Shown: in pieces, positions 8,469-27,665 of the stretch
Numbering within the stretch: position 1 is the stretch's first letter
How the letters are laid out: each line of letters starts with the position of its first letter
From: a virus
IMG/VR virus record: IMGVR_UViG_3300035034_000262
Coordinates: 1 to 31,290 of that record
Direction: 5' to 3' (one strand)
DNA length: 31,290 bases
Translations under genes and position numbers: made by a program
Notes under the pieces: model-generated
What the model was told of the DNA's origin: nothing
The model's database searches: none
Seen by the model: the letters and a program-made list of their open reading frames with translations, nothing else

Positions 8469-11400
8469 ATGTCAGCCACTGATAGACAAAACCGTTTACT
8501 AGTAGCGGAAGACTGGAAACGAGTTTACCAAACATTCCGTAACGCAGATTTTCAAAGTTATGATTTTGACAATCTAAGACGCACAATGATTTCGTATTTG
8601 CGTGAAAATTACCCTGAGGACTTTAACGATTACATCGAGTCTTCAGAGTATCTTGCGCTGATCGATCTGATTGCGTATCTAGGCCAAAACCTAGCATTTC
8701 GAATCGACCTAAATGCTCGTGAAAACTTTCTTGAGCTTGCAGAACGCAGAGAAAGCGTATTGCGTTTGGCTCGTCTAATAAGTTACAATCCAAGCAGAAA
8801 CCAAGCAGCAAACGGCCTTCTAAAGTTTACGTCTATCAGAACTTCAGAAGATGTGTTTGACTCAAACGGTGTAAACTTGAAAGGACAGACTATTCGCTGG
8901 AATGACAATACCAACGCTAATTGGTTTGAACAATTTATTAAGATCATGAACACTGCACTTCCTCTAAATAGTGTGTTTGGTCGTCCTGTAAAGCGTGATA
9001 ATGTTGCAGGCGTTCCTACTGAGCAATATCGTTTTAATGCGTTGAACACAACTGTTCCGGTTTACAGTTTTCAAAAGAACGTAGAAGGCAAGGCAACTTC
9101 CTTTCAGATTGTTTCTACAGATGTGTCTGACGGAAACATTGCAGAAGAACCACCTCTAGTTGGCAACAGTTTTGCTTATTTGTACAGAGACGACGGCCAA
9201 GGCCCCGGAAGTACAAACACCGGTTTCTTTGCGCACTTCCGCCAGGGCAACCTTGACAACGGACAATTTTCTATTACACAGCCTGTTGCTAACCAAGCAG
9301 TAGCAGTTGACAGCGTAAACATTAACGACTCAGACGTTTGGTTGTACTCTCTTGATGCAAACGGTAACGAACAAGAGCTGTGGACAAAAGTTGATTCAGT
9401 GGAAGGCAACAACGTCATCTATAACAGCATTAGCCGAAATGTTAGAAACGTATACAGCGTGCTAACTCGTGCCGACGACAGAATAAATCTAGTGTTCGCA
9501 GATGGAGTATTTGGAAATCTGCCAAAAGGCAACTTTAGAACTTACTACAGAGTTAGTGATAACCGCAGAATGGTTATTACTCCGGCAGCACTGTCTGGTA
9601 TTAGTTTTACTATACCTTACCTAAGTAAAGCAGGAAAACAAGAAGAAATAACGGTTACTGTAGCACTACAAAATACTGTAACAAATAGTTCTACTACAGA
9701 GTCTAGCGACAGTATTAAGAACAATGCTCCTGCTACTTACTATACTCAAAATAGAATGGTTACAGGTGAAGACTACAACGTTGCGCCTTTGGCAATCAGT
9801 CAAGACATAGTTAAAGTTAAAAGTGTTAACCGAACATCAAGCGGTATATCACGTTACTTCGACTTAATTGATGCAACAGGGAAATACAGCACTACAAACT
9901 TATTCGGAACCGACGGTGTAGTCTATAAACAGCCTATAGAAAAGTCAACGTCTTTCTCGTTTACAACACAAACAGACATCGAAGGTGCTATTATTAATGT
10001 AATAGAACCTATTCTTGAAGACAAGAGAACAGAGCAATTTTACTTCGATAACTTCTTTAAGATAAATGCAACTGATTTAAACGTATTCTGGTTATCGGAA
10101 ACAAAAGATACAAACACTTACACTGGATTTTTAGGTAATAACGCAGAAGACGAATTAGATAATCCTTTGGTTTTAGGTTCTTTTACTACTAATAGTCTGC
10201 GTTTTGTAACGCCTAATAGTCTACTAAAGTTTGTAGCACCAGACGGTTCTTGCTTTGATAAGAATAACGTGATACAGACAAGATTGCCTACTAAATTAGG
10301 CGATAAAACCTACTTATGGACTAAAGTTGTAAACATATCGGGTAACGGCGTTGAGCCAACCCTAACTGAAAACTCAGGCGCGATATCTCTAAGCGACGAT
10401 ATTCCAGATAGAGCACAGTTGACTAGAATTATTCCTAAGATTGCTTCTTCATTAACTGATGATGTAAAGCGTCAAATAGTTGATCAAACATTTGCGTTTA
10501 ATAACTACGGCTTGCGTTTTGATGCAGAAGCAGGCGAGTGGAGACTAATAACTGCTTCTAACTTGAACGCTAGAGCAGAATTTAATACAGGCTTTGCCGG
10601 CGATACAAGCGGCCAAGGACTAGATGCTAGTTGGTTAGTAAAGTTCGAAACAACCGGTGAAAGATATCGTGTGACATATCGAGGTCAACGATATGTGTAT
10701 GAAAGTGACGAAGAAATACGTTTCTTTTACGATTCTACAGATAGAATATTTGACAGTAGAACAGGAAGAATAATCAAAGACAAAATATCGGTTCTAAGTA
10801 TTAACACTCAGCCTGATAGTACCTCACCGTTTACATATAACATTGATTGGGAAATTCTTGAAGAGTTCAGAGACGCAGAAGGTTATGCAGATACTTCAAA
10901 AATTGAATTAACTTTTGCCGATAGAGATAACGATGGTGTTGTTGATGATCCGGAATTGTTTGATGTGATTGTGGCACCGAGCAACATTACTTCTGACAAC
11001 TTAGAAGATAAGATAATTGTACAAGAAAAGTATACAACATCTGCAGGAACAGAAGACTTTAGGTACGTCGATGCTGCTGAGCTAGGTATTGAGTTAGTAT
11101 CAACCGAAGCAGAGCTGTCAGCGCCGAGCACATATCAAGACGGTGCACTTTCTTATATCAGAAACAAGAATATCTTTAAAGAGTTCGACGAGACAACACT
11201 GACCTGGAATGTTACTAGTGATTTTAGAGCGTATGTAGGCAGAGATAAACTGAAGTTCCAATACTTACATACAGCAGATTCTAACAATAGAATTGATCCA
11301 AGCGCCAGTAACATTATGGATACATACTTACTAACAAGAGGATATGATAGAGAATATCGCTTATTCTTAGACAATCAGCTGGAGCAACGACCTTTACCAC

Positions 11401-11957
11401 CGAGTTCAGATCAGCTATTTAGGTCATTCGGTAGTTCGCTGAATCAGATAAAGTCGATAAGCGACGAAGTAATTTATCATCCGGTTAAGTACAAAGTACT
11501 ATTTGGATCAAAGGCAAACGAAGACTTGCAGACAACATTTAAAGCAGTTAAAAACCCAGACCAAGTGCTTAATGACAGCGACATTAAGTCAAGAATTGTC
11601 AGTCTGATTAATCAATATTTTGCTTTAGAAAATTGGGACTTTGGAGATACATTCTATTTCCAAGAACTAGCAACATTTGTAATGAATAGAATGGCACCAG
11701 ACTTGGTTACGTTTATTATTGTTCCGAATCAGCTAGAACAAGCATTTGGTAGCCTGTTCGAAATAAGATCAGAGCCAGACGAAATTTTTATCAGCGGCGC
11801 AAATGTTACTGACGTTGAAATAATCGACGAAATTACAGCAACACGGTTGAATGCCAATGGTAAAGTAGTAACAACTTCAGACCTGTCAACTGGAAGAGAT
11901 ATACAGTCTTCGCCAGCAGCAGGCATAACAAACAGTTCCGGAGGAATTAGCTTCTAA
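8469..11957 (+). CDS. 6: gp6-like baseplate wedge protein (enlarged)
   Basis: This is a wedge protein that dimerises between wedges to form the continuous inner ring of the baseplate. The N-terminal signature is strong: RRTMISYLRENYPEDFNDYI, SSEYLALIDLIAYLGQNLAF and RIDLNARENFLELAERRES (about residues 38-95). The C-terminal part has a conserved helical block (SDIKSRIVSLINQYFALENW ... ELATFVMNRMAPDLV, about 1038-1082). Length is 1,162 residues against 660 in T4; the extra sequence is a beta-rich middle section. A canonical EF-hand-type loop (DRDNDGVVDDPE) begins at Asp818. Start: ATG with GAGGA six bases upstream. It shares the TAATG stop/start overlap with the next gene, which is typical of partners made in fixed ratio. 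Confidence 0.92.
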   Translation: MSATDRQNRLLVAEDWKRVYQTFRNADFQSYDFDNLRRTMISYLRENYPEDFNDYIESSEYLALIDLIAYLGQNLAFRIDLNARENFLELAERRESVLRLARLISYNPSRNQAANGLLKFTSIRTSEDVFDSNGVNLKGQTIRWNDNTNANWFEQFIKIMNTALPLNSVFGRPVKRDNVAGVPTEQYRFNALNTTVPVYSFQKNVEGKATSFQIVSTDVSDGNIAEEPPLVGNSFAYLYRDDGQGPGSTNTGFFAHFRQGNLDNGQFSITQPVANQAVAVDSVNINDSDVWLYSLDANGNEQELWTKVDSVEGNNVIYNSISRNVRNVYSVLTRADDRINLVFADGVFGNLPKGNFRTYYRVSDNRRMVITPAALSGISFTIPYLSKAGKQEEITVTVALQNTVTNSSTTESSDSIKNNAPATYYTQNRMVTGEDYNVAPLAISQDIVKVKSVNRTSSGISRYFDLIDATGKYSTTNLFGTDGVVYKQPIEKSTSFSFTTQTDIEGAIINVIEPILEDKRTEQFYFDNFFKINATDLNVFWLSETKDTNTYTGFLGNNAEDELDNPLVLGSFTTNSLRFVTPNSLLKFVAPDGSCFDKNNVIQTRLPTKLGDKTYLWTKVVNISGNGVEPTLTENSGAISLSDDIPDRAQLTRIIPKIASSLTDDVKRQIVDQTFAFNNYGLRFDAEAGEWRLITASNLNARAEFNTGFAGDTSGQGLDASWLVKFETTGERYRVTYRGQRYVYESDEEIRFFYDSTDRIFDSRTGRIIKDKISVLSINTQPDSTSPFTYNIDWEILEEFRDAEGYADTSKIELTFADRDNDGVVDDPELFDVIVAPSNITSDNLEDKIIVQEKYTTSAGTEDFRYVDAAELGIELVSTEAELSAPSTYQDGALSYIRNKNIFKEFDETTLTWNVTSDFRAYVGRDKLKFQYLHTADSNNRIDPSASNIMDTYLLTRGYDREYRLFLDNQLEQRPLPPSSDQLFRSFGSSLNQIKSISDEVIYHPVKYKVLFGSKANEDLQTTFKAVKNPDQVLNDSDIKSRIVSLINQYFALENWDFGDTFYFQELATFVMNRMAPDLVTFIIVPNQLEQAFGSLFEIRSEPDEIFISGANVTDVEIIDEITATRLNANGKVVTTSDLSTGRDIQSSPAAGITNSSGGISF

Positions 11958-14900
11958 TGCCAATTAACGATCAAAACAGTTATCCATTACCAGCAGAAGG
12001 TAACGACAACAAAAGAAGAAGCGCCGAACTACTGCCTAGATATTTTAGAACTCAGGCAAACAAAAAGATTTTAGGCAGCACTTTAGATCAACTTGTACAA
12101 CCAGGTGTTGCCGAAAAAGTATCTGGTTACTACGGTCGTCAGACTGCAAAGGCATTCCAGCCTGGCGACACTTATATTGAAGAAGTAAGCAAACAGCGTC
12201 AGGATCGTCAGCTAGAGCCAGCAACTGTCTTTAAAGACGAGCTAGGCAACGTAGACTTCTATAAAGACTACACTGACTTTATAAATCAGATTTCTGCGTT
12301 TGGTGGAAATGTCAACAACCAAAGTTTGTTGAACACACAAGAATATTATGCATGGAATCCTAACGTAAACTGGGACAAGCTCGCAAACTTCCGTGAGTAC
12401 TACTGGTTGCCAAACGGCCCACAAACAGTCGGCGTAGCTGGACAAGCTCGCGAAGTTACCAGTACATTTAAGGTTACTGTAGAAAACCAGGGCGACAACA
12501 CTGTTTATAACTTTTCTAGCAGACTTGCAGGAAATCCCACTCTTACTTTGTATAGAGGACAGACCTACAGATTTGAAATCGATACACCAAACTATCCGTT
12601 TGCGTTTGTTGTAAACAGAAGTTACACTATACCTGATCCAGACGAAGACAGCGAGAACATTTCAAGTCTTTATGTTAACAACCAGACGTTCTTCGATATT
12701 GATGGCAACGAAATAGATCCACAATATATTGAAGAAGGTGTCATTGAATTCACAGTTCCGATTGAAGCACCTGACGAACTGTACTATCTCAGCGAAAGTA
12801 ATATCAATACCAGCGGGTTTATCAAGGTATTCAACATCGAAGAAAATACCGCTATTAACGTTGAAGAAGAAATATTAGGCAAAGCAGCGTATACCAGCAG
12901 TAATGGTGTTGAGTTTACTAATGGCTTAAAAGTAACATTCAAAGGCGAAGTTACTCCTAGAATATATGCACAAGGTGAATGGTATGTTGAAGGAGTAGGG
13001 ACCAGCATCACTTTGGTTAACGAAAGTGATTTAGTTATCCCAGCAGCATATTCAGATGATGTACTAGTGCCATGGGGTTCTGGTCCGTTTGACAGAGAGC
13101 CGTTTGCAAATGCCAGCAGTTTTGCAGGTGAAAAAGATTACATCGTAGTCAACAGAGCTAGCCCAGATAGAAACGCATGGAGCCGTTATAACAGATGGTT
13201 CCATTCTAGCGTTGTTGAAGCAAGTGCAGCATACAATAACAGCATTGTTGATCTTAACTTAGATGCGCGAGCCACTCGTCCTATTATTGAATTTGACCCT
13301 GGCCTACGTCTTTTTAACTACGGTACACAAGCTAAGGCTGATATTGACCTTATTGATAACTTTACAAAAGATGTGTTTTCGGACGTTGAAGGAAAACTAG
13401 GTTACAACGTAGACCAAACTCAGCTAGTTGAAGGCATGAGAGTATTGTTTACTGCTGACACTGACAGCAGAGTAAATGACAAGACCTATCGAGTGACTTT
13501 CCTTGACGTAAACAACAACAGACAAATATCACTAAGAGAAGAACCAAACACGTTGCCACAAGAAGGCGAAGTTGTCTTAGTCACAAACGGCACTAGAAAC
13601 CGAGGAAAGCTATATTGGTACAACGGTGCAGACTGGCAAGAAACACAAGAGAAGACCGAAAGAAATCAGCCACCTCGTTTTCAGCTATACGATGCTGCCG
13701 GTAATAGCTTTAATGATGCGACATATTACTTAGAGTCTACGTTTGTAGGCACAACGGTATTTGAGTACATACAAGGCGAAGGTAATCCAGATAGCGAGTT
13801 AGGCTTTCCAATCCAGTATCGAACAATTGAAAACGTAGGCGATATCCAGTTTAACTTCTCTCTAGTAAATGATACATTTACCTTTATTGAGGATGACAGT
13901 CTTACAAGTAAGTCGACAGATACTGGTTACCTGAGAAGGTACTCGGACCTTGAAGAGTTTACTGTGCAAAATGCGTGGGCAAAGGCTCGTAAGCCAAGTA
14001 GCCAAGCAGTAATACGTCAGTACGTCTTTGACGAAGCAACAGACACTGTAGACATTGATGTTTATGACAACAGCAGTAGTATTAGTGACCTTGAATTAAA
14101 GGTTTATGTCGACAACAGCATTAAGATGCTAGACGACGATTACATTATTAACCGAGACAGAAAAGTAGCTAGAGTCGTATTTACGAGCGAGTTGCCACAA
14201 GACTCTAACGTGATTCTTAAGGTTAAAAGTAACACATCGAAAAACGAAAACGGTTACTATGAAATAGCTCATAACCTCGAGCGTAACCCGTTAAACAATA
14301 AGATCACTGAATTTACTTTAGGTGAAGTCAACGACCACGTAGAAACAATTGCTGAAAATGTACCAGCGTTTAGCGGTACATTCCCTGGCAAAAGTAACCT
14401 ACGAGATCTAGGCGAGTTAGACGCGTTTGGTAAGAGGTTTGTACAACATAGTGGCCCAGTGAACCTGGCATCTTATCATATCACAGACCGTTCTGCAAAT
14501 ATTATCAAAGCATTGCGTTACAGCAGAGCTGAATATGCTAAGTTCAAGCGTGTGCTTCTTCAAGAAGCAGTAAACCTAGGTATTGACTCGTTAGCAAGAG
14601 TGCAGCTTGACGAGATTTTACGCAGAATTAACTCAGTGAAACCAGAAGGACATCCTTTCTACTTCACTGATATGTTGGGTATAACAACGTCTCGTAAATT
14701 TGACATTGATATCCAAGGTGCTAACAACAACTTCTTAGCACTAAGTCAACCGTTCTCTCTTGATTCTTTATCGGCGCGTTCGGTATTAGTGTATCTAAAC
14801 ACAAAACAATTAATCCACGGTATCGATTATGTGTTTACTGACGAAGGATTTATCGATGTAACAACACCGCTTGAAAGAGGTGATGAAGTTGAAGTAGTTG

Positions 14901-17900
14901 AGTACGATTCAACCGACGGTAGCTTTATTCCAGCAACCCCTACTAAGCTAGGATTGTTCCCAGCGTATGTGCCAAAGATCTTTACTGACACTACGTATAG
15001 AGAACCAAGAAAAGTAATCCAAGGCCACGACGGTAGTATTATTGTTGCATACAATGACTACCGTGATGAGATCTTGTTAGAATTTGAACTGCGTGTTTAT
15101 AACAACATTAAACAGCAGTACAACAAAGATCTATTTGACATGGATTCATTTGTTCCAAGTGACTTCCGTGATACTGGATATTCGCAGGCATCTATTGACC
15201 GTGCAATGATCAAAGATTTTGTTGAATGGTTAGAGATCGCAGGCAACCCAGATTATACGTCTAACACAAACTACGACCGTACTAATCCGTTTACTTTTAA
15301 CTACACAGGCACACTATCGCCTACAGGAGTTCAGTTAAACGGGTACTGGAGAGCAGTATATAATCATGCGTATGACACCGATCGTCCTCATACGCATCCT
15401 TGGGAGATGTTAGGATTTACTCTAGAGCCAGAATGGTGGCAGGAGCAGTATGGTCCAGCACCTTATACAAACAACAACCTAGTAATGTGGCAAGACCTAG
15501 GCGACGGCTTGATCAAAGAGCCAGGCAAACCAGAGCGTCGTCTTAAGAAGTATGCAAGACCAACTCTGCTAAGACACATTCCTGTAGATTCAGCTGGACA
15601 ACTTCGTAGTCCGTTGGCTAGCGGCTATGCACAGAACTTTGTTGATAGACTAGGAAGAGACAGCTTTAAGTTCGGTGATCAGGCGCCTGCTGAGTCTGCT
15701 TGGAGAAGAAGCTCTGAGTACCCATTCAGCTTGCTTACTTCTCGTGTACTAAATCAGCCAAACGCTACGTTTGCAACAGGATTCGACCTGTCAAGAATGA
15801 AGCGTAATCAGGTAGGTCAGATTATCTACACTGAAACAGGCAAAGCTATTCGTCTAGAAGACATTGCGTTCCCTAACGCAACTGTTGATACCAAACGAGT
15901 TATTACAAGTGGTCTAGTAAACTACGTTTATGACTATCTTGCTTCTAATGTGTTGCTAAGCTATAACACATACAAAGAACAATTAGCAGGACTGCGTAAT
16001 CAGTTGAGCTTTAAGGTAGGCGGTTTCACCGAGAAAGAAAAATGGAACATTATCCTTGACAGCAGAACACCGTTTAACCAAGGCAATGTATTCCTGCCTA
16101 AAGAAAACTATCAAATATTCCTGAACACCACGTCGCCAATTGATGTAGCAAACTACAGCGGTATTGTAGTTGAGAAGACATCGTCTGGCTTTGTTGTAAG
16201 AGGTTACGATAGAGAAAATCCTGTGTTTGAGTATTACCCAGCGATTATTTCTTCTAACGACCCTGTTATTAATGTTGGCGGCGTTTCAGAACCATTCCTT
16301 GTTTGGGATGAAGGTAAACAGTATGTAAAAGGTCAAAATGTAAGATACAACAACCTGTTCTACAGAGCAACTGAAACTCATGTCAGTACCGAAGCATTTG
16401 ACAGCACTAAGTTCTCAAGAATTGATACGCTACCTCGAGTCGGCGGCCAGAATGCTGCTCTACGTAAAAACTTCCAGCGTCGTCCGAAAGAACTTGTTTA
16501 CGGAACGGTGTTTAACACTATTCAAGAAGTAGTAGATTTTATGCTTGGATACGAACAAGCACTTATTAAGAAAGGCTTTATTTTTGATTATTTCAATAAC
16601 GAGCTAGGACAAATCGAAGACTGGACTTACAGTGTAAAAGAGTTCTTGTTCTGGACTACTCAGAACTGGCAAGAAGGTAGCGTTATTGCTATCAGTCCAG
16701 GCGCAGAGCAAGTGTTGTTTAACAGAGACTTTGCAGTAGTTGACGACATCTTTAACAACTTCTACGACTATTCATTGTTTGCAGCAGACGGTCGTGAACT
16801 AGAGCGCAGATTTAGTTCAATTGCAAGAAGTAACGAAACAGAATTTGGTCTAAGTGTTGTTAATACTGACAACGGTATATACCATGTTAAGTTGCCATTA
16901 GTGCAAAAAGAACATGTTGTTCTTATTGATAACCGGTCGGCGTTTGACGACATAATCTATCAGCCAGTTACTGGCTATCGACAAGAGCGTGTTCAAGTTA
17001 CTGGTTATAGAAGCGACGGCTGGAACGGCGGCCTAGATATCCCAGGCTTCATATACGACTCAGCTGAAGTAAAAGAATGGGAACAGTGGAAAGATTACGC
17101 TGTTGGCGATCTTGTAAAGTATAAAGAGTTCTTTTATGTAGCAATATACGATGTACCAGGAAGCGATGTATTTGTTTCAGGTAACTGGAAACGCTTAGAC
17201 GAGCGCCCAGCGGCTAGACTAATACCAAACTTTGATTATAGGATTAATCAGTTTGCAGACTTCTATGACCTAGACACTGACAACTTCGATGTTCAGCAGC
17301 AGAAACATGCTCAGCATTTGATAGGATATCAGAAGCGTCAGTACCTACAGAACATTATTAACGATGACGTTTCACAGTACAAGTTCTATCAGGGCTTCAT
17401 ACAGGACAAAGGCACACGTAATTCGCTAACAAAATTGTTTGATGTTCTAGGAGCAGCAGACAGAGACAGCCTAGAGTTTTACGAAGAATGGGCTATACGT
17501 CTTGGCCGTTATGGCGATACTGAAAACAGCAAAATCGTAGAGTTCAAGCTAGACGAAAGTCAGTTCAGACTAGATCCTCAACCAGTTGAGTTAGTTGACA
17601 GACTGCCAGAAAACGCAACAGACCTTGTTTATCGTCAAAGACCTTTTGAGGTATACAGTGCACCAGAAGGGTACGACAACAAGCCATTTATGGTTGCAGA
17701 AAGAGACAACTCTCAAATACGTTCTGCAGGTTACGTTCGTAACGACGATGTTGCATTTAGAGTAAGTGACAAACAAGATATCTTACTAGGAACCCCTGCT
17801 CTTGTAGGGTTAGGTGAGTACATCTGGGTTGTTGGCTTAAACGAAGACTGGGACATTCTTCAGCACATTAGAAGTACCTTGAGAGTTACAGCAATTGAAG

Positions 17901-20900
17901 GCACAGATGACGTTGTTGACGTTCGCGGCGACACAACTAGCCCAGCAGCAATTGTTACATTTGACAACAACACAAAAGACCTAAGTATAGGTCAGTACAT
18001 TGCGATACAAGGAATTGCAGAAGCAAATAATAACTTTTATCAAATTGAAGATCTAAGTTCGAACACTGCAACAGTAATAGTACCAACAGGCATCGAAATT
18101 GAAGACCAAGAAGACGTAGATGGTTTCATTAGTACATTACGAAGTGTTCGTACAACAACTATAGCTGATGCCAATGAAGTAGTCAAGACCGGCGTGCTTG
18201 AAAACCAGCGGCTATGGGTCGACGGAACAGGCTTTAATAACTGGAGCGTATTAGAGAACCAAGAAGTATATGCAGAGTCTCAAGTGCTGTCGAATCGTTC
18301 AACTGAAGAAGCTTCAATTGAATTTGCACAATCAATAGACGCAACCAGCGACAACAGAATTGTAGTTGTTGGCGACTATACGCTAGGTAACGGTTTGGTG
18401 TATGTCTACAACAGAGCATCAGAATCAAATGATCTGCAGATCAATAATGTTCTTACAAGAACAAGAGATATTGAAAACAGCATTGACCTAGGACAAGAAT
18501 TTGGTAAGAGTGTTGCTATAAGTGATGACGGTAACTTTATAGCTGTAGGTTCTCCTTCTGCTTCTAACATCACTGATCCGTACCAGGGTGTATTTGATCC
18601 TGCCACACCTTATGCTCAGAGCGATATTGTTCGTTACTCAGCACAGTACTGGTCGGCAAATAGAAACGTAGATCCTCAAGAAGAAGAACTGCCTTACCTG
18701 TCGTTTAACAGCTATGCGTTTATTGAAGAAGAGACAGACAGTACACAAATCATACTACTTCTGCAAGGTGCTCCTTTTGTAGCAGCAACAGAAGTAGATC
18801 ACATTCTTGTGAGAGCGCCTAAAGATCAGTACGATGCAAGTATTAACTGGATTGACGATGAAAACCTTGATAGAATCTATCTTGAATGGAACGAGTACAC
18901 TAATCTAAACAGAATCAACAACAATAGTACTTCAGATGTATTTGAACAGATTGTTCCGTTTGGAGATGTAAACACAGATGTCACCGATGTAATAGACGTT
19001 GAGTTTATTGAAAAAGGTCACGATATTGTTCGTAAGGTAGACAATATCCTATACATTGATCAAGCACAATCGCTGCCATCTGTCGGCGATACTGTAACAA
19101 CAGATTCAGGTTCAGGCGTTGTATACAAGAGATTCCAACAGGACTTTGACCTAGTACTTTACCTTGTTGATGTTCAAGGTTTCATTGATGTTACTGATTC
19201 GCTGTTCTTTGAAGGTGACCTAGTTGGAACATATACACAGCCAGGAACTACTATCAATCCAGAACTAGGCGGATGGTGGTACATTGAGACAGATTCTGGT
19301 GATTCATCAGAATCTGTATATACAAACTCAGAAGCAGATGCATCTATCGATGACTTTGGCGATCAAGCAGTTGGTTTAGTGTATCAAGACTTTATTCAAG
19401 TACGAGCCGAAGCGCCAAACCGTGCAGTCAACAAGTTCTACAACATAGCAGACGAATTAGGCGAGCTGGGCGATACTGAAATCAGAAGCTTCATAACCAG
19501 CTTGTCGTTTGTTGGGGACATTCAACAAACCAGCGGACAAACTGTTTACGAAGACTCACGTTGGGTTATCAGACTGCCTGCAGACCAAACTGTACAGCAG
19601 GAACTAATTTCTGCAGGCGAATTCCAGTTGTGGGTTAACAACAGTTTGGTTAGCGACGATGTTACTGACTACGGGTTTGACTACAGTTACTTGAACGGTG
19701 TACAAGGCCTGTCGCCAGTAACTCACACAATTGAAGAACTGTGGGATGGTTATATTGACTTTGACTTTACTGTTACACAAACACAAGACATTGACGGTGA
19801 CGGCACAGTCGGTGACTTCTATGAACCAGACGGTTCGCTAGGCATTGACCCAGCAACAGTGTTTGACGACGTTACTATAGCAAGAGCAGAAGTTGTTTAC
19901 TATCAAAAGCGTGCACAAACCAAAGGTAGGATTTACGTTAAACTAAATGCAAACAACCAGTCTCTTGGTAGAGAGTTTACAGTAAACAACATAATAAGAG
20001 TGGACACTGTTGAAGGCAGTATCCCAAGTAATCGTATTATGGGTGTTATTACTGACGTATCAGTGGTTGACAACGGCCTAGGACCGTTAGCAGTTATTGA
20101 TAAAGGAACCCCGTTTGAAATAGCAGCAAGCGAAGAAGCTGATAGGTTCTCCAATCCTTACAACGACTATGCACTAGTTAACGGCGAGTACTGGTTCTAT
20201 GATGTCAATGCAGAAACAGGCAGAGACAGAGCAGCTAAGTATCCTAGTTCAAGTAGTCGTGACTGGTCTCAGGTATTTAACATTCCGGTCCTTACTACTA
20301 AGGATCCTAACGGTATACCAAACCAAGGCGTTTTTGATATCTTTGAAAGAGCGGGAAACAACTGGGTATGGGTATCTTCTTATTTCGTTCCGCTCACAGG
20401 ACAAGATTCTAATGCAGGTAAAGAACTACAATTTGCAAAAGAAGGCAACTTATATAGACTATTTGTTTCTACAGAAGACAAGGTTTACGTATTTAAAAAC
20501 GGCTTTGATGCAGACGGTGTCGAATACAAATGGGCGCTGGACACTGACCCAAGATACAGAGGAGAGCTAGGAGCTATTCCAAGTTCTGTGCAGATTAGTA
20601 CCGGAGACATTGTAAGATTTGACGATACTCTCTACACAGCAAAGACAATTGTAACTAGTAACGAAACTCCTGCAACACTTGGTTCGACTAGCAAATGGGA
20701 ACTATCAGGCAACAACGTTGTAGTTGAAAGCTTCTTGCCGCACACAGCAACAGAAGATCTTTACGGAGACAGCACGTTCACTGATGCAGGTGTACTAGAG
20801 TTTGCAATCACAACAGCAGTTTCTAGCACAGGTCAAGTAGTTGCGATCACAGTAGAAACCGATAGTCAAGATTCTACAGACGAGGACTATCGTGTTCTAG

Positions 20901-23900
20901 TATATCGTCAGCAGAACAATAGATATGTTCTGTCACAGATTATTGATCCTGAAAGAGCAGGCACAAGGTTTGGTACTAGTATCTCATTATCACCAGACGG
21001 CAAAACTCTAGCAATTGGCGAACCAGATAACGACGAAGTAGCTGACAACCAAGGTCTAGTAAGTGTTTACAAACTAGCCAACGGTCAGTTCGAGCTTGCT
21101 CAAATTGTTGAATCTTCAGCTAACGAAAGAGCAGTAAGATTTGGCCAGCAGGTCAGCCTAACCAGCAACTTCCTAGCTGTTAGCAGTTCAATATCTGATA
21201 TTGTATTGCCTACAGACTTTACTGACAGTACAGTCTTTGATAACGGCTTCACTACTTTCTCAGAAAGATGGAATAACATTGGCGGCGTTACACTTTACGA
21301 GTTAATTGACGGCACTTACTTATACGCTGATCAGTTAGAATTCGATAACGCAAACGTTTCGCAGTTTGGCGATGTCTTGCTAGCTGTGCGAAATCACGTT
21401 TATGTAGGCGCACCTGATCTAACAGTTGATGACCGTTTGGGCGCACTAATCGACTTCAGACGGTCACAGGGCGTTAGTGCTTGGAATAAGATAAGAGAGC
21501 CAAAGCCGGTTATTGACCTGAATAAAATCAAGGAAGTTTATCTGTTCGACAAGCGTACAAATCAGCTAGTCACCTACCTTGATTACATCGATGTACGCCA
21601 AGGCAGAATAGCAGGCACAGCAGCGCAGGAAATTAACTATAGAACATTTGTTGACCCTGCTCGTTACAATATTTCAAATCAAGAAATACTGCTTGACACT
21701 GTTAACAATTGGGAAGAAGAAAACGTTGGCAAAACTTGGTGGGATCTAAGCACAGCAAGGTTTGTGCATCCATACCAAGGCGATCCAGTATTCCAGAGCA
21801 CAAATTGGAACAGCTTGCTTCCAGGCGCATCTATAGACGTGTACGAATGGGTAGAGACTGATATCCTACCTTCACGTTGGGATGAAATAGCTGATACGTC
21901 CGAAGGAGTCGCAAGAGGCGTTAGTGGACAGTCACGCTATGGTGATAGCGTGTTCTCACAGAAGCTCAAATACGATCCTGTTGCAGGCAACTTCAGCAAT
22001 GTTTATTACTATTGGGTGCGTAATAAGTTTACTGTGCCTAACATAGAAAGCAGAAAGATCAGTGCAGGTAACCTTGCTAGGCTAATCCAGGACCCAAATC
22101 AAGAGAACTATCAATACGCAGCATTTACTAGCGACAACCGTTTTGTTGTGTATAACATAGACAGCTTGCTTTACAGCGACGATATTGTACTGGCTGTAAA
22201 CCAGTATACGCTAGAAAATCAAGAACAGAATGTTCACGCAGAATATCAGTTGATATCTGAGGGACTAGAAACTAGTCTTCCTAAGCGTGACATTGAACGT
22301 AAGTGGTTCGATAGTTTGGTCGGCGCCGACGAAAGAGGTCGTGCAGTGCCTGATCCAGACCTTAGCCCAAGACAGAAGTACGGTACATTATTCCGTCCTC
22401 GGCAGAGCTGGTTTGTGAATCGCCGTGAAGCACTCAAGCAGGTTATCGAACGTGCTAACATTGCACTAGCGTCTCAACCAGTAGTTGATAGCAAAGACTT
22501 AACAAAATTGTTGTCAGCAGAACCAATGCCTGGAACAGAAACAAGACTGTACGATTATGCAATCGATACTATTGAAGAATTGCGTTTCATTGGTACTAGT
22601 CGTGCAGTGCGAGCTACACTAGACGCTACTGTCGTAGATGGAAGAGTAGTTGACGTTGACGTTGTAAGTCCAGGTCGATCTTACAAAGACCCAACGTTCG
22701 ATAATTCATCCGGTGGCCAGCGTCGAGGACCGTCTGTTACAGTACTAGGAAACGGTGAAAACCTACAAGTTGAGCTGTTCATCGATAACCTAGGCAAAGT
22801 CTCAGGCGTAGATATCATCGATGCAGGCGAAAGCTATACTGGCAACATTACTTTGTTAGTAAGACCGTTGTCAGTGCTGGTACGTGCTGATTCTACAATC
22901 GGTGGACGTTGGGCAATATACGAATGGAACAGCGGCACGGGTGAATGGCAGCGTTCTAGCACACAAGATCATGATGTGAAAAACTTCTGGGATTATGCCG
23001 ACTGGTATGCCGAAGGGGTGAACCAGTTCACACTGGTAAACTTTAGAGTTGACCAAACATATCAGCTGCCATCAATTGATGACGATATAGGCGATGTAGT
23101 TAGAGTTGAAAACGTCGGTACTGGCGGCTGGTTACTGTTACGAAAAATTAACGACTTTGATACTAACGACACTACTCTTAATTACGAGACCATTGGTCGT
23201 GAAGATGGCACAATTCAGTTGAACACATTGTTGTATGACAACAGTCTAAACGGCGTTGGTTTCGACAGAGCAAGTTATGACAACAAGTTCTTCGATGCAG
23301 AACCAGCTATTGAAACTAGAATAGTTATGCAGGCTCTTAAAGAAGACCTGTTGATCGAAGAACTAGCAGTTGAATATAACGCACTGTTCTTCACGAGCCT
23401 GCGTTATGTATTCTCTGAGCAGTTGAACGTAGACTGGGCGTTTAAGACCAGCTTTGTTAAGGCTAAGCACAATGTAGGCGGACTTGATCAAGACATCACA
23501 TTCCGCAATAACACGTTGCCAAGCTACAACGATTATGTAGAAGAAGTGAAGCCTTACAAGACCAACATTAGGGAGTATGTAAGTGCACTAGAAAGAGTTG
23601 AAGACACAAATTCTGTAGTTACAGATTTTGATCTTCCGCCTCGCTACGACGAAGCACAAGACAGAATTATACCACGTCAGGTTACTGTTGTTGACAACAA
23701 CCTAATAGGACTTGATGCAACGTTCGACGAGTATCCAGATAAGAACTGGACAGACAACGTTGGGTTCAAAGTAACCGAAATTCAAGTGTCAGACGGCGGC
23801 TCGAGATATTTATTTGCTCCAAAGGTTACAATTACCGGCGGAGGCGGAGCCGGCGCAACAGCACAGGCGTTTATCAGCAAAGGAAAAGTAAGAAGAGTTC

Positions 23901-26900
23901 AAGTCCTAACGGCTGGTAATGGCTACTTAGGAGCACCAACAGTTACACTAGCTCCACCAAGCAACCAGGAAGGCGTAACAGCAAATGCCAGTGCTACAAT
24001 AGGTGAGTCTGTTGTGCGTAGTATGCGAGTTGAGATCAAGTTTGATAGAATCGCAAAGCGTGCCGCTATACTTACTCTTGACGAGAAGCAGACGTTCATT
24101 GGAACAGCAGTTAACACAGAATTTGCACTTAACTGGCCAATGAGTTTGTCAGACAGCACAGTTACTATTACTATAGATGGTCGCGAAGCACTAAGAAGCG
24201 AGTATACCTTTAGAAACGTTACTGACAACAGCTTGTCTTATGAAAGACAGCATGGCGTTATTGAGTTCTCAGCACCACCTGCTCTAGATGCAAACATTGT
24301 TGTGAATTACAAAAAGGATTCTTCAATCCTAACTGCACCTGAGCGTATTGACTATCTTTACAATCCTACTTCAGGCATGATAGGTAAAGACATTAGTCAG
24401 CTAATGACTGGCGTAGACTACGGCGGCGTAGAAGTACGCAGCTTTGATTTTGACACAGCAACAGGCTGGGACAACGACGAGTGGGCAACATCACCTTGGG
24501 ACTTGTATGATACAACCTACGAAGATCTTGTGTTTGAATTAGATGGCAGCACAACACTTCTAGAACTTGCTTCACCGTTAGAAGACGGTGTTGTCTACAA
24601 CGTTTATAAAGACAGCGAGAGTAACTACACAGGCGGAGCAGTTTTTGGCGCATACTATAATGCTGTTAGAATTGACGATCCTGACTATGACGGTTCAACA
24701 GTAATTGACAACTCAAACGCTGTGATGGAAAGTATCACAGGTGACGGTGCACAAACAATTATTGATCTAGACGAACTAGGTGTGTCAACTGTTGACGGCG
24801 ACATTCTTATTATACGTAAGAGCACAAGTGACGGTAGCTTGCTGCCAGATACTACTAGCTTTGATACACAGCTTGACGGTGGTAGCTTAAACTACGGCAA
24901 CGCAACTGGTCTAAATGCTGAAGATATTATAGTTGACGGTGACTTGTTTGTTACTCCTATTACAAGCGGCGGCCCTGAAGAATTAGTTCCAGGTCAAGTA
25001 CTTGATTCAGTAGACGTTACAGTTTACGAAAGAGTAGGTGACGGCCAGGCCGAAATATTCAATCAGAACTATGTTACTGATGGAGTAACTTTAGAGTATA
25101 CACTAGGTATTAAGCCAAGCAGCGTCGACGGCGTAATTGTAAAACTTGGAGAAACAATTGTACCAGAAACCGAATACGAAATAGATATTCAGAACAATAC
25201 ATTAGAATTTAACGACGCACCTTCAATAGGACAGAAGTTAACTATCCTAACTGTTGGGCTAAGTGGTAATAATGTTCTTGACATTGGAACAGTTGTGTCT
25301 AATGGTGCAGAAAAGATTATTGAAACTTCTGTAACTTTACGTGCTGACGTTTCTACACTGTTGCTAGTTAATGGCGAAGTTCAAGGTAGCACAGATGTTC
25401 TAGTACTAGAAAGAAACGGTCTAGTAGCGTTCGAGTTCGCTGTTGCACCGGTACAAGGAGCAGTAATTGACTTTGCTGTATTCGTACAGCCGGAAGACGG
25501 TATACAGACGTTTAGTCGTGTGTTGAGAGACACGTTTACAGGTGACGGTAGTACCGCAGCTTACACGCTGTCACAGGCACCAGGCGCACAAGACCCAGTT
25601 GAGTTCTTTACTTTGGTAAATGTTGATAATGTTATTCTTAGCCCGGGCTATAACAAGCAGTTTGTTATTGACAACACAACTCAGCTAGAGTACAGCTTCG
25701 ATAACTTCCAGATACCAGACTTTACTATTGACCCTGCACAAGTTAGAGTCTTTGCAGACGGTAATGAACTGGTACGTGGTCGAGATTATCTAGTAACAAT
25801 TGCAAACAGTAGCTTTAGACTAGATCCTGCTTTCTTAATTGAAGGCACAGTAATCGAAGCATATTACACTGCTGATGCAGACTACTTTATTGATGATAAC
25901 ATCATTACGTTTGCTACTACACCTGATATGGACAAGTCTATTGATGTGTATCAGTTTACTAATCACGATGTACTGGATCCAGAGCGTATCAGTTACGATA
26001 TTACAGCAAGAAGTCATCTTGTTCCTGGAACAGACGAGTTTACAACTTATCACAACTTGCGTGGCGGCAAAGTCATACTAAGAAGTGCTGCCGCAGGTGT
26101 CCAATATGTTTGGGTAATTGTAAATGGCAAATTGCTATCACCGTCAGATGATTATACGTTATCTGTTGACAACAAGATAGTTTATCTTGTAGAGGAGCCT
26201 GAAGTAGGTGATTCTGTTGATGTGTTCCACTTTGCAGCACCTGTGCGCACACCTCGTATGGCGTGGAGCAAGTTTAAGGACATTCTCAACAGGACTCACT
26301 ACAAGCGTGTTGATAATGCAACCGGTCTTTCACTTGCACAGCCTTTAAACGAGTACGATTTGCGCATTGAAGTAAATAACGCAACGTCGTTAGCAGTGCC
26401 AAGTAAAAGCAGAAATGCACCAGGCATTATCTTTATCGACGGTGAGCGTATTGAATACTTTGTTAAAGACGGTAATACACTGCGTCAACTACGTCGTGGC
26501 ACACTGGGTACAGGTGTAAAAGAAACTTACCCAGCCGGCACTACAGTAATTAACAACAGCAGTAGCAAAAATATACCGTATCAGGACAAAACTGTTACGC
26601 AGGTAATTGAAAACGACGGTAGTTCAACTAGCTACGAGACACAGTTTAACCTAGGCGGTATAGTACTGAAAAGTAGTCAGACTTACAGAGACTTTTTTGA
26701 AGTGTTTGTAGGCGGTCGCAGGTTGCGCAAGAATGCTAGACAGGAATACCAGTTTGATATGGTTGATGAAGATGGCAACATTGTTCAAGCAATTGCACCA
26801 GATTCACCCGCAGGCGACATAGAAGTCGACAGAGAGTTTGACATTGTAGTGGATTCGGCAACTAAGGATGTTACCTTAGAGCTAGCAGAGTTGCCGTTAG

Positions 26901-27028
26901 AGAATGAAAGCATTGTAATAGTAAGGAAGACAGGTAGACTTTGGAGCGATCCAGGCACTGCATTGAAGGATGCTGATAATTCTATTGGCGATTTCTTAAG
27001 AAAAAGCATAAGTGAATTACCTGAATAA
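11957..27028 (+). CDS. giant gp7-like baseplate/tail structural protein, 5,023 residues
   Basis: A single uninterrupted frame of 15.1 kb directly after gp6, where gp7 lies in T4 (1,032 residues). The N-terminus (LLPRYFRTQANKKILGSTLD, LVQPGVAEKVSGYYGRQTAK, then YKDYTDFINQ) resembles the start of large wedge proteins of marine T4-like phages. In order I see: a cupredoxin-like domain (178-292), beta modules (about 690-1030), a Trp-rich block with WWQEQYGPAPYTNNNL near 1160, CBM5/12-like motifs (1449, 1707, 2212, 2874), an FG-GAP-type propeller (2117-3190), Gly-rich repeats (3562-4000), a conserved block VDWAFKTSFVKAKHN (near 3824), a beta-module array (4045-4760) and a C-terminal GERIEYF...LRRGTLGTG module (4829). 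GGAGGA lies 11 bases upstream of the ATG. No gp8, gp9, gp10 or gp11 gene is recognisable between gp6 and the fibres, so this protein may take over several of those roles. That is inference. Confidence 0.75.
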   Translation: MPINDQNSYPLPAEGNDNKRRSAELLPRYFRTQANKKILGSTLDQLVQPGVAEKVSGYYGRQTAKAFQPGDTYIEEVSKQRQDRQLEPATVFKDELGNVDFYKDYTDFINQISAFGGNVNNQSLLNTQEYYAWNPNVNWDKLANFREYYWLPNGPQTVGVAGQAREVTSTFKVTVENQGDNTVYNFSSRLAGNPTLTLYRGQTYRFEIDTPNYPFAFVVNRSYTIPDPDEDSENISSLYVNNQTFFDIDGNEIDPQYIEEGVIEFTVPIEAPDELYYLSESNINTSGFIKVFNIEENTAINVEEEILGKAAYTSSNGVEFTNGLKVTFKGEVTPRIYAQGEWYVEGVGTSITLVNESDLVIPAAYSDDVLVPWGSGPFDREPFANASSFAGEKDYIVVNRASPDRNAWSRYNRWFHSSVVEASAAYNNSIVDLNLDARATRPIIEFDPGLRLFNYGTQAKADIDLIDNFTKDVFSDVEGKLGYNVDQTQLVEGMRVLFTADTDSRVNDKTYRVTFLDVNNNRQISLREEPNTLPQEGEVVLVTNGTRNRGKLYWYNGADWQETQEKTERNQPPRFQLYDAAGNSFNDATYYLESTFVGTTVFEYIQGEGNPDSELGFPIQYRTIENVGDIQFNFSLVNDTFTFIEDDSLTSKSTDTGYLRRYSDLEEFTVQNAWAKARKPSSQAVIRQYVFDEATDTVDIDVYDNSSSISDLELKVYVDNSIKMLDDDYIINRDRKVARVVFTSELPQDSNVILKVKSNTSKNENGYYEIAHNLERNPLNNKITEFTLGEVNDHVETIAENVPAFSGTFPGKSNLRDLGELDAFGKRFVQHSGPVNLASYHITDRSANIIKALRYSRAEYAKFKRVLLQEAVNLGIDSLARVQLDEILRRINSVKPEGHPFYFTDMLGITTSRKFDIDIQGANNNFLALSQPFSLDSLSARSVLVYLNTKQLIHGIDYVFTDEGFIDVTTPLERGDEVEVVEYDSTDGSFIPATPTKLGLFPAYVPKIFTDTTYREPRKVIQGHDGSIIVAYNDYRDEILLEFELRVYNNIKQQYNKDLFDMDSFVPSDFRDTGYSQASIDRAMIKDFVEWLEIAGNPDYTSNTNYDRTNPFTFNYTGTLSPTGVQLNGYWRAVYNHAYDTDRPHTHPWEMLGFTLEPEWWQEQYGPAPYTNNNLVMWQDLGDGLIKEPGKPERRLKKYARPTLLRHIPVDSAGQLRSPLASGYAQNFVDRLGRDSFKFGDQAPAESAWRRSSEYPFSLLTSRVLNQPNATFATGFDLSRMKRNQVGQIIYTETGKAIRLEDIAFPNATVDTKRVITSGLVNYVYDYLASNVLLSYNTYKEQLAGLRNQLSFKVGGFTEKEKWNIILDSRTPFNQGNVFLPKENYQIFLNTTSPIDVANYSGIVVEKTSSGFVVRGYDRENPVFEYYPAIISSNDPVINVGGVSEPFLVWDEGKQYVKGQNVRYNNLFYRATETHVSTEAFDSTKFSRIDTLPRVGGQNAALRKNFQRRPKELVYGTVFNTIQEVVDFMLGYEQALIKKGFIFDYFNNELGQIEDWTYSVKEFLFWTTQNWQEGSVIAISPGAEQVLFNRDFAVVDDIFNNFYDYSLFAADGRELERRFSSIARSNETEFGLSVVNTDNGIYHVKLPLVQKEHVVLIDNRSAFDDIIYQPVTGYRQERVQVTGYRSDGWNGGLDIPGFIYDSAEVKEWEQWKDYAVGDLVKYKEFFYVAIYDVPGSDVFVSGNWKRLDERPAARLIPNFDYRINQFADFYDLDTDNFDVQQQKHAQHLIGYQKRQYLQNIINDDVSQYKFYQGFIQDKGTRNSLTKLFDVLGAADRDSLEFYEEWAIRLGRYGDTENSKIVEFKLDESQFRLDPQPVELVDRLPENATDLVYRQRPFEVYSAPEGYDNKPFMVAERDNSQIRSAGYVRNDDVAFRVSDKQDILLGTPALVGLGEYIWVVGLNEDWDILQHIRSTLRVTAIEGTDDVVDVRGDTTSPAAIVTFDNNTKDLSIGQYIAIQGIAEANNNFYQIEDLSSNTATVIVPTGIEIEDQEDVDGFISTLRSVRTTTIADANEVVKTGVLENQRLWVDGTGFNNWSVLENQEVYAESQVLSNRSTEEASIEFAQSIDATSDNRIVVVGDYTLGNGLVYVYNRASESNDLQINNVLTRTRDIENSIDLGQEFGKSVAISDDGNFIAVGSPSASNITDPYQGVFDPATPYAQSDIVRYSAQYWSANRNVDPQEEELPYLSFNSYAFIEEETDSTQIILLLQGAPFVAATEVDHILVRAPKDQYDASINWIDDENLDRIYLEWNEYTNLNRINNNSTSDVFEQIVPFGDVNTDVTDVIDVEFIEKGHDIVRKVDNILYIDQAQSLPSVGDTVTTDSGSGVVYKRFQQDFDLVLYLVDVQGFIDVTDSLFFEGDLVGTYTQPGTTINPELGGWWYIETDSGDSSESVYTNSEADASIDDFGDQAVGLVYQDFIQVRAEAPNRAVNKFYNIADELGELGDTEIRSFITSLSFVGDIQQTSGQTVYEDSRWVIRLPADQTVQQELISAGEFQLWVNNSLVSDDVTDYGFDYSYLNGVQGLSPVTHTIEELWDGYIDFDFTVTQTQDIDGDGTVGDFYEPDGSLGIDPATVFDDVTIARAEVVYYQKRAQTKGRIYVKLNANNQSLGREFTVNNIIRVDTVEGSIPSNRIMGVITDVSVVDNGLGPLAVIDKGTPFEIAASEEADRFSNPYNDYALVNGEYWFYDVNAETGRDRAAKYPSSSSRDWSQVFNIPVLTTKDPNGIPNQGVFDIFERAGNNWVWVSSYFVPLTGQDSNAGKELQFAKEGNLYRLFVSTEDKVYVFKNGFDADGVEYKWALDTDPRYRGELGAIPSSVQISTGDIVRFDDTLYTAKTIVTSNETPATLGSTSKWELSGNNVVVESFLPHTATEDLYGDSTFTDAGVLEFAITTAVSSTGQVVAITVETDSQDSTDEDYRVLVYRQQNNRYVLSQIIDPERAGTRFGTSISLSPDGKTLAIGEPDNDEVADNQGLVSVYKLANGQFELAQIVESSANERAVRFGQQVSLTSNFLAVSSSISDIVLPTDFTDSTVFDNGFTTFSERWNNIGGVTLYELIDGTYLYADQLEFDNANVSQFGDVLLAVRNHVYVGAPDLTVDDRLGALIDFRRSQGVSAWNKIREPKPVIDLNKIKEVYLFDKRTNQLVTYLDYIDVRQGRIAGTAAQEINYRTFVDPARYNISNQEILLDTVNNWEEENVGKTWWDLSTARFVHPYQGDPVFQSTNWNSLLPGASIDVYEWVETDILPSRWDEIADTSEGVARGVSGQSRYGDSVFSQKLKYDPVAGNFSNVYYYWVRNKFTVPNIESRKISAGNLARLIQDPNQENYQYAAFTSDNRFVVYNIDSLLYSDDIVLAVNQYTLENQEQNVHAEYQLISEGLETSLPKRDIERKWFDSLVGADERGRAVPDPDLSPRQKYGTLFRPRQSWFVNRREALKQVIERANIALASQPVVDSKDLTKLLSAEPMPGTETRLYDYAIDTIEELRFIGTSRAVRATLDATVVDGRVVDVDVVSPGRSYKDPTFDNSSGGQRRGPSVTVLGNGENLQVELFIDNLGKVSGVDIIDAGESYTGNITLLVRPLSVLVRADSTIGGRWAIYEWNSGTGEWQRSSTQDHDVKNFWDYADWYAEGVNQFTLVNFRVDQTYQLPSIDDDIGDVVRVENVGTGGWLLLRKINDFDTNDTTLNYETIGREDGTIQLNTLLYDNSLNGVGFDRASYDNKFFDAEPAIETRIVMQALKEDLLIEELAVEYNALFFTSLRYVFSEQLNVDWAFKTSFVKAKHNVGGLDQDITFRNNTLPSYNDYVEEVKPYKTNIREYVSALERVEDTNSVVTDFDLPPRYDEAQDRIIPRQVTVVDNNLIGLDATFDEYPDKNWTDNVGFKVTEIQVSDGGSRYLFAPKVTITGGGGAGATAQAFISKGKVRRVQVLTAGNGYLGAPTVTLAPPSNQEGVTANASATIGESVVRSMRVEIKFDRIAKRAAILTLDEKQTFIGTAVNTEFALNWPMSLSDSTVTITIDGREALRSEYTFRNVTDNSLSYERQHGVIEFSAPPALDANIVVNYKKDSSILTAPERIDYLYNPTSGMIGKDISQLMTGVDYGGVEVRSFDFDTATGWDNDEWATSPWDLYDTTYEDLVFELDGSTTLLELASPLEDGVVYNVYKDSESNYTGGAVFGAYYNAVRIDDPDYDGSTVIDNSNAVMESITGDGAQTIIDLDELGVSTVDGDILIIRKSTSDGSLLPDTTSFDTQLDGGSLNYGNATGLNAEDIIVDGDLFVTPITSGGPEELVPGQVLDSVDVTVYERVGDGQAEIFNQNYVTDGVTLEYTLGIKPSSVDGVIVKLGETIVPETEYEIDIQNNTLEFNDAPSIGQKLTILTVGLSGNNVLDIGTVVSNGAEKIIETSVTLRADVSTLLLVNGEVQGSTDVLVLERNGLVAFEFAVAPVQGAVIDFAVFVQPEDGIQTFSRVLRDTFTGDGSTAAYTLSQAPGAQDPVEFFTLVNVDNVILSPGYNKQFVIDNTTQLEYSFDNFQIPDFTIDPAQVRVFADGNELVRGRDYLVTIANSSFRLDPAFLIEGTVIEAYYTADADYFIDDNIITFATTPDMDKSIDVYQFTNHDVLDPERISYDITARSHLVPGTDEFTTYHNLRGGKVILRSAAAGVQYVWVIVNGKLLSPSDDYTLSVDNKIVYLVEEPEVGDSVDVFHFAAPVRTPRMAWSKFKDILNRTHYKRVDNATGLSLAQPLNEYDLRIEVNNATSLAVPSKSRNAPGIIFIDGERIEYFVKDGNTLRQLRRGTLGTGVKETYPAGTTVINNSSSKNIPYQDKTVTQVIENDGSSTSYETQFNLGGIVLKSSQTYRDFFEVFVGGRRLRKNARQEYQFDMVDEDGNIVQAIAPDSPAGDIEVDREFDIVVDSATKDVTLELAELPLENESIVIVRKTGRLWSDPGTALKDADNSIGDFLRKSISELPE
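12488..12832 (+). other. cupredoxin-like domain lacking copper ligands (inside the giant protein)
   Basis: Residues 178-292. NPTLTLYRGQTYRF followed by NYPF, then EFTVPIEAPDELYY and a 14-residue end YYLSESNINTSGFI fit the cupredoxin-like pattern (TL..G.TY.F...HPF ... TFTVP..AP..LYYQC..H..M.G.I). The four ligand positions appear replaced: His by Tyr213, Cys by Ser279, His by Asn282, Met by Thr285. The fold call is by pattern only. Confidence 0.6.
16301..16426 (+). other. CBM5/12-like motif 1 (inside the giant protein)
   Basis: Residues 1449-1490. VWDEGKQYVKGQNVRYNNLF then YRATETH follows the carbohydrate-binding pattern W...Y..GD.V.Y....Y.A. of CBM5/12 modules. The Asp after the Gly is replaced by Gln. 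Binding is not shown by sequence. Confidence 0.5.
17075..17206 (+). other. CBM5/12-like motif 2 (inside the giant protein)
   Basis: Residues 1707-1750. EWEQWKDYAVGDLVKYKEFF then YVA and a closing NWKRLD. This is the best of the four matches, with both Trp, the GD.V.Y core and the final Trp preserved. Confidence 0.6.
18590..18676 (+). other. CBM5/12-like motif 3 (inside the propeller insertion)
   Basis: Residues 2212-2240. VFDPATPYAQSDIVRYSAQY then WSA. The first Trp is replaced and Gly of the GD pair is Ser. It opens the large insertion in propeller unit two. Confidence 0.45.
20576..20704 (+). other. CBM5/12-like motif 4 (between propeller units three and four)
   Basis: Residues 2874-2916. 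SVQISTGDIVRFDDTLYTAK ending in SKWELSG. The GD.V.....LY.A core and closing Trp are present; the leading Trp is absent. Confidence 0.45.
22640..23956 (+). repeat. Gly/Tyr beta repeats (inside the giant protein)
   Basis: Four copies of a unit G.V..V.V...G..Y....V.: at residue 3562 (GRVVDVDVVSPGRSYKDP), 3613 (GKVSGVDIIDAGESY), about 3934 (VTEIQVSDGGSRYLFAP) and 3976 (GKVRRVQVLTAGNGYLGAP). They form two pairs about 370 residues apart; the second pair encloses a GGGGAGATAQA stretch. The intervening sequence holds a conserved-looking block near residue 3824. Confidence 0.65.
24089..26236 (+). repeat. array of short beta modules (inside the giant protein)
   Basis: Residues about 4045-4760 hold at least five degenerate modules of 60-90 residues with the pattern YTL...P....V.V.VNG..L....DY.....N.I.....P..G..I.V. 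Examples: VTITIDGREALRSEYTF, DGVIVKLGETIVPETEYEI, VRVFADGNELVRGRDYLVTI and VWVIVNGKLLSPSDDYTLSV. Such arrays look like stacked beta-sandwich units of a fibrous or wedge-like structure. Confidence 0.6.
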
Positions 27029-27056: not shown

Positions 27057-27665
27057 ATGGTAAACGAAACTAACGGCGTGTTCATACAGGGACACATCAA
27101 AATACACGATCCTGAAACTGGTGAGGTTCTTGTCAACAAAAAGAATGCTATCCATTATGAGAATATGAGTATTGCCCTTGCACAGAGCTTGGGCAACGAA
27201 GGCAACGGTCCTATATCTGAAATGAGCTTTGGTAACGGAGGCACTAGTATTGATCCTACAGGTGTTATTACGTATCTTACTCCTAATTCAACAGGCACTA
27301 ATGCTAGTCTCTATAATCAAACATTCAGTAAAATTGTCGACGACAGAAACGCTAACAATTTGGATCCGAATAGAAACAAGATAGAAACAAGACACGTAAG
27401 CGGTACGAACTACACTGACATTATTGTTACTTGTTTGTTAGACTACGGCGAGCCAAATGGGCAGGATGCGTTTGATACAGCAGCTTCAACAGACGCTCCG
27501 TTTGTGTTTGACGAACTAGGACTGCGTAGTGCACCGGTTGCAGGACAGGAAAGAGGCAGATTGCTAACTCATGTTATCTTCCATCCAGAACAAAAGTCAC
27601 TCAACCGGTTGATACAAATTGATTACACCGTCAGAGTGCAGAGTCTCAGTGGAGGTAATACCTAA
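27057..27665 (+). CDS. virion-associated protein of unknown role (202 residues)
   Basis: I do not recognise a T4 counterpart. The N-terminus (GVFIQGHIKIHDPETGEVL, then KNAIHYENMSIALAQSLGN) recalls small structural proteins that sit before tail-fibre genes in marine T4-like phages; that memory is family-level only. The rest is beta-rich (YTDIIVTCLLDYGEPNG, APFVFDELGLRS, LLTHVIFHPEQKS, IQIDYTVRVQS). No signal peptide or membrane segment is visible. It has its own late promoter, only a weak GGA ribosome signal 10 bases upstream, and a TAATG overlap with the fibre gene. Candidates are a fibre connector or a baseplate attachment protein. Confidence 0.6.
   Translation: MVNETNGVFIQGHIKIHDPETGEVLVNKKNAIHYENMSIALAQSLGNEGNGPISEMSFGNGGTSIDPTGVITYLTPNSTGTNASLYNQTFSKIVDDRNANNLDPNRNKIETRHVSGTNYTDIIVTCLLDYGEPNGQDAFDTAASTDAPFVFDELGLRSAPVAGQERGRLLTHVIFHPEQKSLNRLIQIDYTVRVQSLSGGNT

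Follow-up and report, generated by a model that had tools for sequence, protein, structure and literature searches.

Directly downstream of its gp6 gene, this marine viral fragment encodes a 5,023-residue protein that we interpret as a virion baseplate protein, most likely in the role of gp7, enlarged into a scaffold that carries adhesion-type modules; we give this reading a probability of roughly 0.65. The window analysed here is the entire IMG/VR record, a linear viral fragment of 31,290 bases, in which the giant and its immediate neighbours lie as follows.

8469-11957, plus strand: gp6-type baseplate wedge protein, directly upstream of the giant (phrog_10646, 1,015 bits)
11957-27028, plus strand: giant virion structural protein, 5,023 aa (phrog_10938, 1,095 bits)
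27057-27665, plus strand: conserved 202-aa protein after the giant (phrog_11259, 245 bits)

The giant's frame runs from ATG to TAA through 5,023 codons with no interruption, a length that cannot be due to chance, and its start codon, preceded by a GGAGG Shine-Dalgarno sequence, overlaps the gp6 stop as TAATG. An earlier sequence-only reading had described a single 5,023-residue frame following gp6, and its coordinates, strand and length proved exact, with the frame also conserved in relatives. The same reading placed the end of the giant just before the fibre block; the fibres do begin at 27665, but the next gene is that of the 202-aa protein. Around the giant, we found genes for SbcD/gp47, a late sigma factor, a virion protein, gp53, a second virion protein, a gp5-type lysozyme, gp25 (an identity backed by both phrog_261 and phrog_43) and gp6, with the conserved 202-aa protein and the fibres after it. 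The order 53-...-5-25-6-giant is common to the window, cultured jumbo phages and cyanophages, and the assignment of the giant to the gp7 slot, directly after gp6, is thereby upheld.

Several neighbouring genes have features of their own. The phrog_11259 protein, of unknown function, follows the giant in 13 of 13 marine relatives (counterparts of ~200-206 aa in all 13), and PA5oct gp357, near the PA5oct giant, is of similar size and marked ESI-MS/MS. The two fibre genes (27665-29755 and 29737-31290) overlap by 19 bases as called and encode similar N-termini (D...SL...GR...NYG/YGE...EN..QMLEN), possibly a tag for attachment to the baseplate. The gp5-type protein (5654-7951) has a C-terminal lysozyme domain (residues 638-756), after a Gp5_trimer_C-like stretch (383-440), whereas in T4 gp5 the lysozyme precedes the beta-helix.

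To place the giant among known proteins, we compared it with environmental and cultured relatives. Stretches encoding relatives of residues 1000-1960 number at least 594 in IMG/VR, and the nearest fully sequenced relative has 71% identity to the giant over these residues. All 13 marine relatives examined (from IMG/VR) have a giant directly after gp6, uninterrupted and 4,504-5,248 aa long in 12 of them; in the thirteenth (L087, from G002), an otherwise open frame of ~5,035 codons has a lone in-frame TAG at codon 377, which may reflect a sequencing error, a nonsense mutation or readthrough. A close relative of the giant is also contained in a 330,024-base marine record (L371), the size of which suggests that the giant's lineage includes jumbo phages. 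Matches by tblastn were to jumbo phages only (PA5oct, Atu_ph07, SCTP-2, GAP32, CBB, RaK2, PBECO4 and others), and those inspected always had one giant gene adjoining gp6; the giants of cultured jumbo phages are 3,138-4,449 aa long, and more distant giants are found in XacN1 and RAS14. Because giants occupy the same slot in marine relatives, jumbo phages and cyanophages, neither size nor slot is unusual, and the expectation that this would be among the largest phage tail proteins was overstated: the cyanophage S-SSM5 protein in this slot has 6,171 aa, one marine relative (L096) encodes 5,248 aa, and phage proteins of up to 7,694 aa have been reported (PMC7162821). The structural role that had been proposed is borne out by homologues, with 21 unique peptides from CBB_236 (encoded by a 10,023-bp gene that adjoins gp6) detected in CBB virions at 7.72% coverage (PMC5259590), and with the PA5oct giant gene annotated 'ESI-MS/MS'.

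When 19 giants were compared, two conserved parts, A (residues 1-1960) and B (3181-3930), stood out, with a variable insert between them (1961-3180) and a C-terminal part that varies as well; within these regions we located the following features.

12020-12136, plus strand: conserved N-terminal segment, residues 22-60 (LLPRYFRTQANKKILGSTLDQL...GYYGR), common to 19 of 19 aligned giants
12137-17191, plus strand: conserved part A, residues 61-1745 (1,400-2,220 residues in all giants)
16295-16429, plus strand: CBM5/12-like (chitin-binding type) module 1, residues 1447-1491 (Pfam PF02839, 2.3e-7)
17075-17218, plus strand: CBM5/12-like module 2, residues 1707-1754 (self-match to module 1, E 5e-6)
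17219-17536, plus strand: candidate gp7/gpI-type wedge core, helix-KGT-helix and EEWA, residues 1755-1860 (KGT at 17408-17416)
17837-21496, plus strand: lineage-variable insert, residues 1961-3180 (1,220 residues here)
18257-18577, plus strand: first FG-GAP-type propeller repeats, residues 2101-2207 (self-match to 2990-3030, E 8e-10)
18578-18706, plus strand: CBM5/12-like module 3, residues 2208-2250, right after the first propeller repeats
20552-20713, plus strand: CBM5/12-like module 4, residues 2866-2919 (self-match to module 1, E 3.5e-4)
20795-21409, plus strand: second block of FG-GAP-type propeller repeats, residues 2947-3151 (internal repeats, E 1e-9)
21497-23746, plus strand: conserved part B, residues 3181-3930, in all giants and of no known family
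22643-22864, plus strand: Gly/Tyr-rich repeat, copy 1, residues 3563-3636 (self-match to 3938-3999, E 3e-7)
23747-27025, plus strand: C-terminal part with repeated short beta modules, residues 3931-5023
23768-24031, plus strand: Gly/Tyr-rich repeat, copy 2, residues 3938-4025, common to cyanophage giants

The CBM5/12-like module 1 was above the PF02839 cut-off (31.2 bits against 26.2 for the slice 1000-1960; 25.8, just under, for residues 1-2500), and the family was matched in 51 of 52 relatives. Structure comparison gave a VIA-align Z of 7.2 for module 1 (rmsd 1.2 over 45 residues) and, for module 2 against a tail fibre of phage 7-7-1, a Z of 7.4 (rmsd 1.4). Within the insert, module 3 matched residues 2866-2912 by self-comparison (E 1.3e-5), module 4 precedes the second FG-GAP-type block, and a CBM_5_12 match was found in 9 of 12 insert sequences. 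FG-GAP_2 matches occurred in 11 of 12 relatives and, here, in residues 2947-3151 (4.6e-9; 36.8 bits against a cut-off of 23); the approximately five repeats seen by self-comparison are split, with ~740 residues between the two blocks. A PDB sequence search with the insert gave weak integrin-alpha and S-layer matches, and no paper on FG-GAP repeats in phage baseplates turned up among those searched. The insert itself is 708-1,399 residues long in marine relatives and 125-139 in Rak2-like and XacN1-like phages. Beyond part B, the second Gly/Tyr-rich copy matched the S-SSM5 giant (HHalign, 94%), and short beta modules lie at approximately 4064-4112, 4365-4431, 4466-4536, 4583-4664, 4711-4759 and 4878-4990, with related ones at 707-761 and 933-981 (at least eight in all by self-comparison, mostly C-terminal). 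The proposed accretion of many domains thus finds its counterpart in the CBM5/12-like modules (four in all), the two blocks of a putative FG-GAP propeller and the short beta modules, and, given these internal repeats, growth of the giant by duplication is well supported.

We next consider whether the giant is a gp7/gpI-type wedge protein. Its gene follows a gp6/gpJ/TssF homologue, as in the gp7/gpI/TssG superfamily of wedge scaffolds. The most conserved stretch among the 19 giants (residues 1751-1850) contains, near residue 1818, FYQGFIQDKGTRNSLTKLF...EEWA, with the KG invariant in 19 of 19 (in GAP32 this region lies near residue 1535), and a matching motif occurs in P2 gpI (HCHKGTIGAIRRV...EWW), T4 gp7 (FYSTKGIEASYKFLF) and S-SSM5 (FYTAKGTSFSISYLF). 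When a P2 gpI profile was compared with all 5,023 columns, residues 1816-1845 were the best match (score 29.3), and column- or block-shuffled profiles did as well in 0 of 120 and 1 of 500 trials (together, 1 of 620). For each of two independent subgroups of jumbo phages (PA5oct/SCTP-2/Atu_ph07 and XacN1/RAS14), the KGT stretch again came top; it ranked second with a marine-only profile and was missed by the Rak2-group profile. A profile of T4 and cyanophage gp7 also matched best at the KGT stretch, with a score that alone was not significant, and the motif clearly links T4 gp7 to the cyanophage giants (E 2e-10). Since the match is short and weak, it constitutes moderate evidence only, and a gp7/gpI-type wedge core, predicted from the helix-KGT-helix and the E-W motif after it, is accordingly moderately supported, and with it the gp7 element of the earlier reading.

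Against the gp7 role, the whole-protein T4 gp7 profile gave nothing significant with the giant by HHalign, the KGT motif included. Neither T4 gp7 proper (phrog_964) nor another gp7 homologue was detected in the relatives' records, and HMMER with Tail_P2_I over the same records gave no match. Residues 22-60 could possibly form the core-bundle helices of a gpI/gp7-type protein; by HHalign they matched neither P2 gpI nor T4 gp7. AlphaFold of residues 1745-1900 was of low confidence (pLDDT 64) and had no Foldseek match, and the model of residues 1000-1960 returned CBM5/12 modules and no wedge protein, a list from which T4 gp7 was missing, so that nothing is excluded. Apart from a chitin-binding domain, PDB sequence searches with three slices of the giant returned nothing but weak noise.

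In the model that we favour, each of the six wedges would contain one copy of the giant, which would link a pair of gp6 chains. The giant would bind the wedge through the helix-KGT-helix-EEWA region near residue 1818, perhaps aided by residues 1-60, and the long insertions and C-terminal extension would carry the three kinds of repeated module (CBM5/12-like, FG-GAP propeller-like and short beta). These modules may reach out from the wedge, where they would hold or make up the periphery of the baseplate and probably contact host surface sugars, and contact could then be passed to gp6/gp25 such that sheath contraction starts. Such a division of labour, with the KGT part as the predicted gp6-binding element and the inserted modules as the predicted source of periphery and host contact, follows the analogy of the (gp6)2-gp7 wedge and of XM1, in which gp17 (a gp7 orthologue) binds tail spikes via inserted and C-terminal segments (PMC10457771). 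A bolder version, which we offer only tentatively and consider unlikely, is that a gp7-type scaffold absorbed an FG-GAP (integrin-alpha-like) propeller and several carbohydrate-binding modules, becoming wedge linker and host sensor in one chain that does the work of gp7, gp8, gp10 and gp11.

An alternative raised from the sequence alone is a fusion, in which one chain holds gp7 together with equivalents of gp8, gp10 and gp11 and replaces those proteins. The giant's size would allow this, and no jumbo relative, among them six complete genomes and the 330-kb marine record, gave a match to the gp8 or gp11 Pfam family, so that unrelated parts may do the work of these proteins; that gp8-gp11 are missing from the window says little, because the window is the whole 31,290-base fragment. 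However, profile-profile comparison of the giant with T4 gp8, gp9, gp10, gp11 and gp12 matched nothing (HHalign; best E 0.37-0.53, with the gp10 and gp11 queries being single sequences and so insensitive), and the repeats, CBM-like modules and propeller account for the extra length. Moreover, S-SSM5, with its larger giant, still has a separate gp8 (annotated), gp9 and probable gp10 (a wedge gene of 1,386 aa at the gp10 position), and G003, G016 and G023, all marine relatives, have gp9/10-type N-terminal adaptors in genes of their own. Of what the earlier reading named as refuting a fusion, separate gp8, gp10 and gp11 genes, a part is in place: gp9/10-type genes are separate in these three relatives, and gp8 and gp11 were detected in no jumbo relative. 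Overall, we regard fusion as unsupported and quite improbable. The separate tail genes that begin with a gp9/10-type N-terminus are L201 1495-3114 (G003), L200 376-1668 (G016) and one on L381 (G023); the motif reads NDGxGDSxR...KxNxNFxElY in G003 and G016, and one of the three genes lies in a 2,985-codon open frame. Three candidate matches were set aside: phrog_438 (gp8-like) matched inside giants in the Gly/Tyr-rich repeat region only and is not evidence of gp8, a phrog_460 'head closure' match was likewise confined to that region, and a marginal gp8 match in G015 had internal stops and was below the cut-off.

A second alternative is that the giant belongs to the baseplate periphery or to a fibre network and occupies the gp7 slot without being related to gp7, which would itself be another, unrecognised protein. 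The dominance of adhesion-type modules, the lack of significant whole-protein similarity to T4 gp7 and the many functionless proteins in Atu_ph07 and CBB virions would all fit such a role, but its place directly after gp6 is kept in distant groups, and the KGT motif, together with the failure to detect any other gp7 homologue in the records, leads us to consider it unlikely. Far less probable is an artefact of assembly or gene calling, or a product cut into gp7-sized pieces: although the frame comes from one metagenomic contig and the peptides of the CBB homologue cover so little of it, the same uninterrupted frame recurs in many independent contigs and isolates.

Together, these results favour an enlarged gp7-type scaffold. 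Giant 'virion structural proteins' after gp6 have been deposited without function for dozens of jumbo phages and cyanophages, and the motif and module evidence gives them a testable role, as gp7/gpI-type scaffolds with built-in adhesion modules. Should that role be right, it would show how some phages arrive at a complex baseplate by enlarging a single scaffold protein rather than by acquiring further genes, and the absence of gp7 from the annotations of these phages would be explained. Among known systems, T4 gp7 likewise lies directly after gp6 and carries KG (T4 residues 738-739) within the equivalent helix-turn-helix, but it is 1,032 aa long and has no significant profile match to the window giant. 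P2 gpI (Tail_P2_I; 176 aa) and XM1 gp17 (242 aa; a comparison taken from PMC10457771 rather than computed) have the helix-KGT-helix followed by E-W/A and a gene directly after a gp6/gpJ homologue, with only ~26 columns that align with the giant. Cyanophage giants after gp6 (S-SSM5 SSSM5_094, 6,171 aa; S-SCSM1 gp015, 4,120 aa) share the slot, a similar or larger size, the Gly/Tyr-rich repeat and the KGT motif, but not detected end-to-end homology. Long stretches of homology tie the giant to the phrog_10938 'virion structural proteins' found in jumbo phages that are Rak2-like or related (GAP32_230, CBB_236, RaK2 ORF070, PBECO4 gp538, PA5oct gp355, Atu_ph07 gp180 and SCTP-2 gp140), the profile of which matched the window giant in four stretches: these proteins are homologous to it over residues 16-1980 and 3179-3893, are single giant frames in the same place after gp6 of the 53-5-25-6 block, and occur in virions (CBB and PA5oct), and they differ in length (3,326-4,449 aa) and in an insert of 125-127 residues in the Rak2-like phages against 1,220 in the window. 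The window giant is therefore not exceptional, but a further member of a known group of giants that follow gp6.
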